Source of the DNA: Cellulomonas aerilata
Lineage (GTDB): Bacteria > Actinomycetota > Actinomycetes > Actinomycetales > Cellulomonadaceae
Reading direction: 5' to 3'
DNA: 64,000 nt
Assembly: GCF_007991755.1 (NCBI RefSeq)
Contig: NZ_BJYY01000021.1
Coordinates: 1-64,000, forward strand
This document shows, piece after piece, positions 39,582-42,334 of the stretch. The notes below the pieces were generated by a model. That model searched no databases. It was given only the letters and a program-made list of their open reading frames with translations, and was not told the origin of the DNA. The position numbers were made by a program, and so were the translations under genes. Each line of letters begins with the position of its first letter. Within the stretch, counting starts at the first letter, position 1.

Positions 39582-40904
39582 TCAGAACCGGGCGCGGACG
39601 GCCTCTCCGTGAGCCGGCAGGTCCTCCGCGTCGGCCAGGGCGCCGATGCGGTCGGCGACCGCCTGCAGTGCGGCGAAGTCGTACTCGATGACCTGCACGG
39701 CCTTGACGAAGCTGTGCACGCCGAGCGCGCTTGCGAAGTGCGCGCAGCCCCCGGTGGGCAGGACGTGGTTGGACCCGGCCATGTAGTCGCCGAGGGAGAC
39801 CGGCGAGTACGGGCCGACGAAGACGGCCCCGGCGTTGCGCACCCGGTCCGCGACCGCGGCCGCGTCGGCGGTCTGGATCTCCAGGTGCTCCGCGCCGTAG
39901 GCGTCGACCACCTGCAGACCGTGCTCCAGGTCGTCGACGAGCACGATCGCGCTCTGCCGGCCGGACAGCGCGGTGCGCACGCGCTCCTCGTGCGGGGTGG
40001 CGTCGGCGCGGTCCTCCAGCTCGGACTCGACCGCACCGGCCAGCTCGACGGAGTCCGTGACCAGCACGGCCGCAGCCAGCGGGTCGTGCTCGGCCTGGCT
40101 GATGAGGTCCGCGGCGACGTGGACCGGGTCGGCTCCCCCGTCGGCGAGCACCGCGATCTCGGTCGGCCCCGCCTCGGCGTCGATGCCGACCCGTCCGCGG
40201 ACCAGCCGCTTCGCCGCCGCGACGTAGACGTTGCCGGGGCCGGTGATGACGTCCACCGGCTCGCACAGCCAGTCGCCGTCGACGGGCTCGGACCCGGCGG
40301 CGCCGTAGGCGAACATCGCCACGGCCTGCGCGCCGCCGACGGCGTAGACCTCGTCGACCCCGAGCAGCGCGCACGCGGCCAGCACGGTGGCGTTCGGCAG
40401 CCCCTTCTCGTCCCGCTGCGGCGGGGAGGCCACGGCGAGCGAGCGCACCCCCGCCTCCTGGGCCGCCACGACGTTCATCACGACGGACGACGGGTACACG
40501 GCCAGCCCGCCCGGGGCGTACAGGCCGACCCGGTCCACCGGGACCCACCGCTGGCGCACCTGGGCGCCCGGACCGAGGTCGACGGACAGGGGCGCAGGAA
40601 CCTGGGCGGAGTGCACCGTCCGCACCCGGCGGATCGCCTCCTCCAGCGCGGCCCGCACGAGCGGGTCGAGGTCCTCCAGCGCGGCGGCCAGCGCGTCGGC
40701 CGGCACGCGCAGGTGCTCGGGGCGCACGCCGTCGAACCGCTCGGCGAGGTCGCGCAGCGCCGCGGCGCCGTGCACCCGCACCGCGTCCAGGACGGGCTGG
40801 ACCAGGTGGGTCGCGGCGTCGACGTCCACCTCGGCGCGCGGCAGCACCGCGACGAGCTCTCGGGGGGTGAGCCTGCGCCCGCGCAGGTCGAGACGGGTGA
40901 TCAC
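39582..40904 (-). CDS. hisD: Histidinol dehydrogenase
   Basis: NAD-dependent, zinc-binding enzyme for the last two oxidations of histidine synthesis. Family motifs are intact: [41 protein letters not shown], the zinc ligands in SQAEHD, and [14 protein letters not shown] near the end. 440 residues. The GTG start lies 6 nt after TAGACT with no Shine-Dalgarno. Downstream comes oleA rather than hisC, so the usual hisDCB order is broken here by the ole operon and the RecQ-like gene. Confidence 0.97.
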
Positions 40905-40910
40905 CTCGCC

Positions 40911-40916
40911 AGTCTA
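40911..40916 (-). promoter_or_regulatory. hisD -10 element (leaderless geometry)
   Basis: TAGACT on the minus strand ends 6 nt before the hisD GTG. No Shine-Dalgarno between. Confidence 0.55.
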
Positions 40917-40994
40917 GGCGTGGGCACCGCGCCGGGGCCCGGCCCGCGCCTGCCGGGTCACTGCCCGCACGACGACGCCCGGCATGATGGACGC

Positions 40995-41213
40995 ATGAGC
41001 CAGGTCCCGATCAGCGACGACGTCATCCGCCTCGGCCAGTTCCTCAAGCTCGCCGGCCTGGCCGACTCCGGGGCGCACGCCCGCGAGCTGCTCGAGGACG
41101 GTGCGGTGACCGTGAACGGACAGGACGAGTCCCGCCGCGGTCGCCAGCTGCGCCGGGGCGACGTCGTCGTGGTCGACCACCCCGCCGGGCAGACCACCGC
41201 GACCGTCGGCTGA
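40995..41213 (+). CDS. Small S4-domain RNA-binding protein
   Basis: A 72-residue protein made almost entirely of one S4 domain: IRLGQFLKLAGLADSGAHARELLEDGAVTVNGQ followed by a basic strand and GDVVVV. It resembles YaaA/YbcJ-like stand-alone S4 proteins that bind structured RNA, often linked to ribosome assembly. It starts with ATG, 6 nt after CATGAT, a near-match to the leaderless -10 pattern. It is divergent from hisD and is followed by the palindromic repeat array. Confidence 0.85.
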   Translation: MSQVPISDDVIRLGQFLKLAGLADSGAHARELLEDGAVTVNGQDESRRGRQLRRGDVVVVDHPAGQTTATVG

Positions 41214-41240
41214 CCCCGCCGCCGTCCACCCCACCCCGCC

Positions 41241-41297
41241 CGAGTGCGACGTCGCGGACCCTTCGGCGCGCGGGAACGGTCCGGGACGTCGCACTCG
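41241..41297. repeat. Palindromic element copy 1
   Basis: Arms CGAGTGCGACGTC and GACGTCGCACTCG pair over 13 bp. After one mismatch, CGGACC pairs with GGTCCG, and the top is a GC-rich loop. Confidence 0.85.
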
Positions 41298-41335
41298 ACG
41301 GAGCGGAGCGGGCGGAGGGCGGGAGCGGCCTTGCT

Positions 41336-41392
41336 CGAGTGCGACGTCGCGGACCCGTCGGCGCACGGGAACGGTCCAAAACGTCGCACTCG
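41336..41392. repeat. Palindromic element copy 2
   Basis: Outer 12 bp are perfect. The next three positions do not pair (GTCC is followed by AAA), then GGACC/GGTCC pairs again. The spacer to copy 1 is short (38 bp) and lacks the miniature element. Confidence 0.8.
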
Positions 41393-41476
41393 ACGGAGCA
41401 AGTCGGATCGCGGGAGCGGCCTTGCCCGAGTGCCCCTCGCAGGCGGAGCACGGCGGAGCGCCGGAGCGGACTTGCC

Positions 41477-41533
41477 CGAGTGCGACGACGCGGACCCTTA
41501 GGCGCGCGCGAACGGTCTAGGACGTCGCACTCG
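41477..41533. repeat. Palindromic element copy 3
   Basis: Outer arm has one mismatch at position 12. The inner stem is GGACC with GGTCT, kept by a G-U wobble. Confidence 0.8.
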
Positions 41534-41616
41534 GCGCGGCGGGGTGACCGCGGCAGCGGCCTTGCCCGAGTGCCACTCGCAGGCGGAGCAGGGCGGAGCG
41601 CCGGAGCGGACTTGCC

Positions 41617-41673
41617 CGAGTGCGACGTCGCGGACCCTTCGGCGCGCGGGAACGGTCTAGGACGTCGCACTCG
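41617..41673. repeat. Palindromic element copy 4
   Basis: 13-bp perfect outer stem; the inner stem uses the same GGTCT wobble variant as copy 3. Begins exactly 140 bp after copy 3. Confidence 0.85.
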
Positions 41674-41756
41674 GTGCGGCGGGGTGACCGCGGCAGCGGC
41701 CTTGCCCGAGTGCGACTCGCAGGCGGAGCAGGGCGGAGCGCGGGAGTCGCCTTGCA

Positions 41757-41813
41757 CGAGTGCGACGTTGCGGACCCTCCTGCGCGCGGGAACGGTCCAC
41801 AACGTCGCACTCG
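41757..41813. repeat. Palindromic element copy 5
   Basis: Outer stem extends to 14 bp: the left arm reads GACGTTG and the right arm CAACGTC, a matched change on both sides relative to copies 1 and 4. Begins 140 bp after copy 4. Confidence 0.85.
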
Positions 41814-41887
41814 GCGTGGGCGGAGCGGCGGGAGCGCGGAAGCGGCGCCCGCGGCTGGGGGGCGGCCGGGGGCGGTGGGTAGCAGCG

Positions 41888-42334
41888 CTAGCGGACGGTG
41901 CCCAGCAGCTTCGTGACCTGCAGGTGCAGCACGACCCGGGTCGGCTGCTCGCCGAGCACCCGGTAGCGGTCCGCGTACCGCTCGACCGCCTCGGCGACGT
42001 CGGCCGGGTCGTCGGAGAGGGTGATCGTGCCCTCCAGGGTCAGCCACCGGCGCCCGTCGACCTGGCAGAGCGCCGCCGGCAGCGGCCCGCCGTCCGGCCC
42101 CCCGCGTGCGACCCGGCGGGCCTTGACCGACGTCGACCGGGTGGTGATCCGGGCCCGCCCGCGGGTCGCGTCCCAGGTGAACGCGACGGGCACCAGGTGC
42201 GGGCTGCCGTCGCGCCGGACGGTGCTCAGGGTGGCCAGGTGACGGTCGGTGACGAACGCGAGCTGCGCGTCGGAGAGCGTGACGACCGGCTGCCCCGACC
42301 CCGCCGGCTGCTCCCCCGTCCCGGGGACCGTCAC
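41888..42334 (-). CDS. PPOX-class (pyridoxamine 5'-phosphate oxidase-like) F420/flavin oxidoreductase
   Basis: Split-barrel flavin-binding fold, 148 residues. LSDAQLAFVTDRHLATLSTVRRDGSPHLVPVAFTW is the typical N-terminal strand pair, and RITTRSTSVKARRVARGG holds the cofactor phosphate-binding Lys/Arg. The sequence style matches the actinobacterial F420-dependent PPOX group, but FMN or heme binding cannot be excluded, and the substrate is unknown. The GTG overlaps the dnaE stop as GTGA, so it follows dnaE in one transcript. Stop is TAG. Confidence 0.82.
   Translation of the reverse strand: MTVPGTGEQPAGSGQPVVTLSDAQLAFVTDRHLATLSTVRRDGSPHLVPVAFTWDATRGRARITTRSTSVKARRVARGGPDGGPLPAALCQVDGRRWLTLEGTITLSDDPADVAEAVERYADRYRVLGEQPTRVVLHLQVTKLLGTVR

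Follow-up and report, generated by a model that had tools for sequence, protein, structure and literature searches.

The window analyzed in this study is a stretch of 64,000 nucleotides of contig NZ_BJYY01000021.1 from Cellulomonas aerilata. Two convergent genes of this window, encoding an S4-domain protein (Pfam S4_2/S4; 40995..41213, plus strand) and a PNPOx-like protein (Pfam PNPOx_N; 41888..42334, minus strand), are separated by an array of near-palindromes at positions 41241-41813; both genes lie outside the element. The array reported in the first-pass annotation was confirmed. It includes five 57-bp palindromes, none having an assigned strand: copy 1 (41241..41297), copy 2 (41336..41392), copy 3 (41477..41533), copy 4 (41617..41673), and copy 5 (41757..41813). 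The start-to-start distances are 95, 141, 140, and 140 bp, in agreement with the 140-bp spacing described for copies 3, 4, and 5. The 13-bp miniatures, likewise unstranded, occupy the three spacers of 83-84 bp between copies 2 and 5, with a single miniature per spacer: CGAGTGCCCCTCG, which retains only the ends (41427..41439), CGAGTGCCACTCG (41567..41579), and CGAGTGCGACTCG (41707..41719). The arm variants were also recovered, namely GTTG with CAAC in copy 5 and GGTCT in copies 3 and 4. The 11-mer GAGTGCGACGT, with at most one mismatch, has 15 occurrences in the window; the expected number is 4.5, and none of 100 shuffles gave more than 12.

Confinement of this element to the window would have counted against the first-pass annotation; the element is dispersed in its own genome and present in relatives. 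A half-site search revealed many more places in the C. aerilata genome besides the window array. With spaced 11-base arms, at most three mismatches, and the length preset to 57 bp, 31 copies were counted in the C. aerilata genome, and 65, 9, 6, and 1 copies in four other genomes of the same genus (G004, G003, G001, and G002, respectively). The reversed-pattern control, with the same spaced arms and mismatch limit, gave 0 matches in each of these five genomes. A length of 57 bp was preset in all searches across lineages except one, in which the arm spacing was left free (24-120 bp). In the window and 17 other regions of the C. aerilata genome, this search found 32 elements of 57 bp and one of 58 bp; other lengths were found once or twice each, mostly as cross-copy pairs or chance matches. 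As regards a possible assembly artefact, independent assemblies contain the same 57-bp-long element. Of 221 genomes of the family, four have its exact 9+9 form, and all of these belong to the genus. The exact 10+10 form was found in 90 stretches in a scan of the contig collection, coming from Blastococcus, Geodermatophilus, Frankiaceae or Frankiales MAGs, Cellulomonas sp. 2-216, Cellulomonas fimi SB, and UASB270.

The element consists of two inverted half-sites of about 20-24 bp (CGAGTGCGACGTYNYGGACC plus a little more), with the outer spacing fixed at 57 bp. The half consensus starts with CGAGTGCGACG, and the two ends are alike. What stays constant across lineages is the outer arms and the length of 57 bp; the inner part differs. 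The half-sites are CGAGTGCGACGTYNYGGACC in the Cellulomonas-like group, CGAGTGCGACGAACTCGTGG in Geodermatophilaceae, and TGAGTGCGACGAACCTCGTC in Frankiaceae. In three Blastococcus orthologues (L210, L211, and L212) the outer arms are altered and the inner part is similar, the reverse of the Cellulomonas case; the outer arms of L210 and L211 depart from CGAGTGCGACG. Additionally, single elements (11 in C. aerilata and 14 in G004) have a C-rich left flank and a G-rich right flank of at least 15 bp.

Concerted changes in the two arms had been taken earlier as a sign of selection on a folded RNA or cruciform. This argument did not hold at the variable inner stem in the C. aerilata genome. Among the 32 copies of this genome, stem positions 13-15 pair in 47, 38, and 31% of cases, compared with 49, 38, and 41% for shuffled partners, and base-pair covariation at the inner variable positions was rejected for lack of an excess over shuffled partners. 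Pairing above shuffles was found in this genome at position 1 (z 3.2) and position 7 (z 5.0). Some excess was also found at positions 16 and 8 in Geodermatophilaceae and at positions 16-19 and 4 in Frankiaceae, where it may reflect shared ancestry. Since positions 13-15 of the C. aerilata copies pair no more than shuffles, the symmetry of these copies arises mainly because one half-site is present twice, and a protein dimer on DNA would account for it better than a base-paired stem. At a locus shared by C. aerilata (L044:3979-4035) and G004 (L329:3371-3427), the two arms are altered symmetrically (GTGAGACG/CGTCTCAC).

The palindromes are associated with a gene for a nuclease. In the C. aerilata genome this gene (G000:C14:4318-5208, minus strand) has palindromes on both sides. 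In this genome and in G004, the sole close homologue of the nuclease sits between palindrome clusters, and in the named contigs a homologous gene lies between two palindromes spaced by about 1 kb. The first-pass annotation had proposed REP/BIME-like elements and a search for a linked REP-associated transposase. The likeness stands insofar as the palindromes are dispersed, extragenic, located behind genes, and associated with an enzyme gene; the enzyme is not a RAYT. The Y1 (HUH) transposase domain (PF01797) was found in none of the five genus genomes, while the control search matched 5 of 14 named control genomes, and a RAYT partner was rejected for the five genus genomes. The flanked gene instead encodes a nuclease of the AbiEi-Vsr/EDxHD type.

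Homologues of the nuclease were found in 19 of 20 genomes reached through palindrome loci (E 1e-10), a count that covers 20 of the 22 loci. The exception is UASB270, presumably a member of another phylum, for which no homologue was found at this threshold. Its four loci with 57-bp GGAGTGCGACG palindromes (L120, L159, L171, and L194) lie inside a repeat with partly common flanks; they may be a coincidence and are not counted as support. Nine Geodermatophilaceae loci (L203-L211) have matching palindromes on both flanks.

For a sample of the whole phylum, a profile was built from seven palindrome-flanked nucleases. Matches were found in 66 of 396 genomes (E 1e-25, with at most six candidates scored per genome); given the origin of the profile, the sample represents relatives of these seven proteins and not all DUF559 proteins. 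The sample provided 29 loci apart from the C. aerilata gene, none chosen for palindromes, and 28 after L243 was left out. In total, three loci were dropped: L243 (1 base of right flank at a contig end), L214 (73 bases of left flank), and L200 (a duplicate of L233). At 22 of the 28 loci, the upstream and downstream flanks match each other above the 99th percentile of a between-family null, and the counts are the same with exact gene ends. With an unfiltered null, formed by the 756 cross pairs in the sample, the 99th percentile is 34 and 21 of 28 loci exceed it. In wider sets, the between-family percentile is exceeded at 46 of 61 loci overall and at 13 of 20 paralogue loci; thus, the threshold was failed by 6 of the 28 phylum-sample loci and 7 of the 20 paralogue loci. 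The maximum of the between-family null was exceeded at 16 of 28 loci, a number not used as evidence because pairs scoring 50 or more were assigned to one family and the null therefore cannot rise above 49. An earlier null, which was contaminated because it included loci that share a palindrome family, gave 0 of 63 loci above its 99th percentile. A clear palindrome in at least one flank was found at 14 of the 22 matching loci and was missing at 8, the limit for this, a score of at least 10, having been set afterwards. The automatic palindrome extents range from about 31 to 79 bp, several being near 57 bp.

The similarity of the palindromes tracks that of the nucleases (Mantel r 0.80 for 46 loci, reached in 0 of 2000 permutations). 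Among nuclease pairs with more than 60% identity, palindromes are shared in 98%; below 60%, they are shared in at most 3% per bin. An exception is formed by the nucleases of C. aerilata, Geodermatophilaceae, and Frankiaceae, which are only about 33% identical and yet have the same outer arm, something that simple co-divergence does not explain. Two further cases were observed in the genus. In G003, a 57-bp palindrome with arms CGAACTGGGAGTAGTGG (L202:1092-1148) lies beside a weak nuclease homologue (E 1.9e-5) whose flanks do not match each other. In G002, CGAGTGCGGGCGA-type palindrome-like repeats were seen by eye upstream of a 35% identical homologue (L201, at about 1320-1490 and 2550-2610); the flank score of this locus, 30, is under the threshold.

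A second family of palindromes, with independent arms, was found beside other members of the nuclease family. Palindromes of 57 bp with CGAGTGGCCA arms were found in six of 12 genomes searched (G314, 13; G565, 12; G278, 3; G601, 2; G390, 1; G465, 1) and in none of the other six. Reversed controls gave 0-4 matches per genome (4 in G314 and 1 in G565), so single CGAGTGGCCA matches are not evidence. The family is dispersed in G314 and G565. Nuclease ORFs adjoin CGAGTGGCCA palindromes in G278, G601, and G314, and in G565 two such palindromes are located, by coordinates, on either side of the nuclease homologue. We regard it as well supported that the window array is a member of a palindrome family linked to a nuclease of the AbiEi-Vsr type.

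The structure of the C. aerilata nuclease was modeled from a 60-row alignment with a mean pLDDT of 95.7; a seven-row model (pLDDT 57.9) was set aside. In this model, residues 193-296 superpose on the homing endonuclease I-Bth0305I (3r3p; Z 13.9, rmsd 2.7, 96 aligned) and on Vsr (1cw0; Z 10.8, rmsd 2.8, 100 aligned), and a match to 3hrl was also found (Z 12.1). A profile search with the nuclease part likewise yielded 3hrl (E 4e-8) and 3r3p (E 4e-6). Residues 4-188 match AbiEi (6y8q; Z 12.6, rmsd 6.2, 177 aligned, 12% identity), and residues 52-191 match MenT1, a nucleotidyltransferase-type toxin (8an5; Z 12.1, rmsd 3.0, 137 aligned). The two matches are tied, so the fold alone does not settle DNA binding by the N-terminal half. 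By Foldseek alone, 1zel (Rv2827c) came first with E 3e-5, the sole match below E 0.001, and I-Bth0305I followed with E 0.0047. The Pfam family AbiEi_1 (PF09407) was above the cut-off in the C. aerilata and G004 proteins and was not reported for the Blastococcus protein; DUF559 was above the cut-off in the G004 and Blastococcus proteins and just below it in that of C. aerilata. Residues E196, D229, E240, H246, and D255, which we tentatively take to be the positions of the EDxHD motif, are present in 59, 60, 58, 46, and 58 of the 60 rows, respectively. As modeled, the protein is a fusion of an AbiEi-like half with a Vsr/EDxHD domain resembling that of homing endonucleases. AbiEi is described as binding two 23-bp inverted repeats located 3 bp apart, the repeats of Rv2827c being 13 bp apart (PMC7319586), and I-Bth0305I as forming a dimer on a target almost 60 bp long (PMC3943268). 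By analogy, a 57-bp site with half-sites of about 23 bp would fit both sets of data.

The history of the palindromes was followed in the same genus. At the orthologous S4-PNPOx junction of G001-G004, the gaps are short and the array is absent from all four. Thus, among the five genomes, the window array occurs in the C. aerilata lineage only, and it was most simply gained there. At 12 other places in the C. aerilata genome, G004 has a matching copy at the same locus; much of the present palindrome set is therefore old, and its copies may be kept in place instead of moving. Tandem arrays in G004 have a fixed unit: 24 of 26 neighbor spacings below 200 bp, in 20 regions, are exactly 72 bp (57 + 15). 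The exact 72-bp period was found at loci L265, L267, L268, L270, L274, L275, L276, and L282, and the 15-bp spacer sequence is particular to each array. In C. aerilata neighbor spacings are variable, with 72 bp found once among 14; the spacer of locus L033 repeats the 15 bp on its left at 14 of 15 positions. A fixed 72-bp unit would fit cutting at a fixed distance.

We consider it fairly probable that the palindromes, as non-autonomous repeats, have as their partner a nuclease whose gene lies elsewhere in the genome, in a REPtron-like arrangement where the nuclease binds the half-sites and probably spreads or maintains them. The nuclease would dimerize on the two inverted half-sites through its AbiEi-like part, and its Vsr/EDxHD domain would nick or cut the DNA. 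Cutting followed by repair might then copy the palindrome to new intergenic sites and might also multiply it in tandem, giving arrays like that of the window. Several results count against this reading: the comparisons made resolved no empty site with exact limits and no target-site duplication of 3-11 bp, many copies are old, some loci fall short of the flank threshold, H246 is present in 46 of 60 rows only, UASB270 has look-alike palindromes and no nuclease homologue at the threshold used, and nucleases about 33% identical have the same outer arms. More tentatively, such systems may be widespread in Actinobacteria as selfish or domesticated elements, each with an AbiEi-Vsr/EDxHD nuclease copying its own target of about 57 bp and two half-sites around the chromosome. 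They would represent a REP-like origin independent of RAYTs, with a new palindrome arising when the nuclease diverges and more than one system present in some genomes.

Alternatively, the palindromes could be operator-like sites by which the fusion protein regulates its own gene, the dispersed copies being regulatory, decoy, or chromosome-organizing and having no role in spreading. AbiEi-family proteins are described as autoregulating through paired 23-bp inverted repeats (PMC7319586), and at the Geodermatophilaceae loci L203-L210 a distance of 54-58 bp separates the end of the upstream palindrome from the start of the nuclease profile match. The 12 loci common to C. aerilata and G004 also agree with maintained binding sites. 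Their half-site blocks are 91-94% identical (271/288 at positions 1-12 and 109/120 at positions 16-20), compared with 43/72 at positions 13-15 and 101/204, or 50%, in the center, all these values being somewhat generous, since the best G004 copy was picked per locus. This pattern suggests either constraint on the half-sites or their repeated overwriting from other copies. However, regulation of this kind leaves unexplained the second copy behind the nuclease gene, the acquisition of an array of five copies at a single locus, the tandem expansion by a fixed 72-bp unit, and the patchy occurrence in distant families. We regard it as unlikely, though worth keeping in view.

It is improbable that the palindromes are MITE-like miniature transposons moved by an ordinary transposase, with the nuclease gene as cargo or a chance neighbor. 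Inverted ends, dispersal, and the array gain would agree with such elements, as would a 2-bp flank duplication found in 7 of 11 C. aerilata elements against 5.05 expected (p 0.058). But target-site duplications of 3-11 bp were found in none of the 11 C. aerilata and 14 G004 single elements and, among 57 Geodermatophilaceae elements, were not found above chance. In the five genus genomes, no Y1 transposase was found. Moreover, the matching flanks at 21-22 of 28 loci, together with the co-divergence, make a chance neighborhood unlikely.

A role as transcription terminators or RNA hairpins for the preceding genes (e.g., RNase III or stability elements) is also of low probability. It would agree with strong hairpins and with location behind genes. 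On the plus strand, the folds of copy 4 and of the remaining copies beat 199/200 and 200/200 shuffles, respectively. As for the 3' intergenic position, which the first-pass annotation had proposed to test, C. aerilata copies are intergenic and mostly located behind genes. Divergent gaps, as classified by a simple gene caller trained on the window, make up 1 of 18 element-bearing gaps compared with 18 of 70 other gaps in C. aerilata (Fisher p 0.11), 0 of 22 compared with 59 of 174 in G004 (p 0.0003), and 4 of 55 compared with 50 of 141 in Geodermatophilaceae (p 0.00003); the depletion is significant in the latter two and not in C. aerilata alone. Elements outside the called gaps number 0/32, 9/50, and 3/59, respectively, and in Geodermatophilaceae 34 of 51 elements lie at most 30 bp from the 3' end of a gene. 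The pairing excess at C. aerilata positions 1 and 7 and at Frankiaceae positions 16-19 would also agree with an RNA. On the other side, positions 13-15 of the C. aerilata copies lack covariation, and no Rfam covariance model matched positions 40900-42200 up to E 1. The suggestion of a terminator cluster was not upheld, as no T-run was found in the 15 bases on either side of any of the five window copies. Behind rplA, moreover, a separate hairpin is present in C. aerilata, G004, and G002; the C. aerilata palindrome lies beyond it as an extra, and the other two have no palindrome there. Terminators require neither a conserved sequence nor a length of 57 bp, which counts against this reading. Termination was rejected as the main role on account of the missing T-run and the separate rplA hairpin.

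Finally, it is very improbable that the palindromes mark self DNA or are the target of a defense nuclease: PADLOC AbiEi models match the C. aerilata (best E 1.3e-6) and Blastococcus (6e-12) proteins, but this match is limited to the N-terminal half, and no AbiEii toxin domain was recognized in the two ORFs flanking the C. aerilata nuclease gene.

Among titles and abstract beginnings, from sources that mostly exclude subscription papers and preprints, no relevant literature was found on DUF559, Vsr, AbiEi, or actinobacterial palindromes with nucleases or RAYTs. If the pairing of palindrome and nuclease holds, DUF559-type actinobacterial proteins gain a testable target, and recognition of AbiEi-type inverted repeats would be linked to a homing-type nuclease. 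Many natural pairs of nuclease and site would also become available for reading the recognition code.

Several known systems share parts of this architecture. AbiEi antitoxins and Rv2827c resemble the N-terminal half of the protein by fold (Z 12.6, tied with MenT1) and by profile (PF09407), and their paired inverted repeats of about 23 bp (PMC7319586) resemble the half-sites. They differ in the nuclease fusion and the genome-wide dispersal of sites found here, and in the AbiEii toxin, not recognized in the two ORFs. The EDxHD homing endonuclease I-Bth0305I shares the fold of the catalytic domain (Z 13.9), and its dimer target is given as nearly 60 bp (PMC3943268); here, in contrast, an AbiEi-like half is added and the presumed target brackets the gene. 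Unlike homing endonuclease genes, the C. aerilata gene lies between palindromes and was not seen inside another gene. TIRtrons, described as RAYT-like genes flanked by TIRs (PMC3733652), are similar in that the gene lies between inverted repeats from which dispersed families can form, but the enzyme found here is no tyrosine transposase. The closest likeness in architecture is to REPs or REPINs with their RAYT (the REPtron), which are also short extragenic palindromes located behind genes in many copies and flanking the gene of their enzyme. By homology the system is not a REPtron: the enzyme is an AbiEi-Vsr/EDxHD-type nuclease, a Y1/HUH RAYT was not found in the five genus genomes, and the palindromes end in CGAG...CTCG and not in the described GTAG or CGTC tags (PMC3733652). 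According to the same source, GTAG REPs are tied to a single enzyme family, the RAYTs, and CGTC repeats apparently have no dedicated transposase. A nuclease of an unrelated superfamily would stand to the palindromes described here as the RAYT stands to GTAG REPs.
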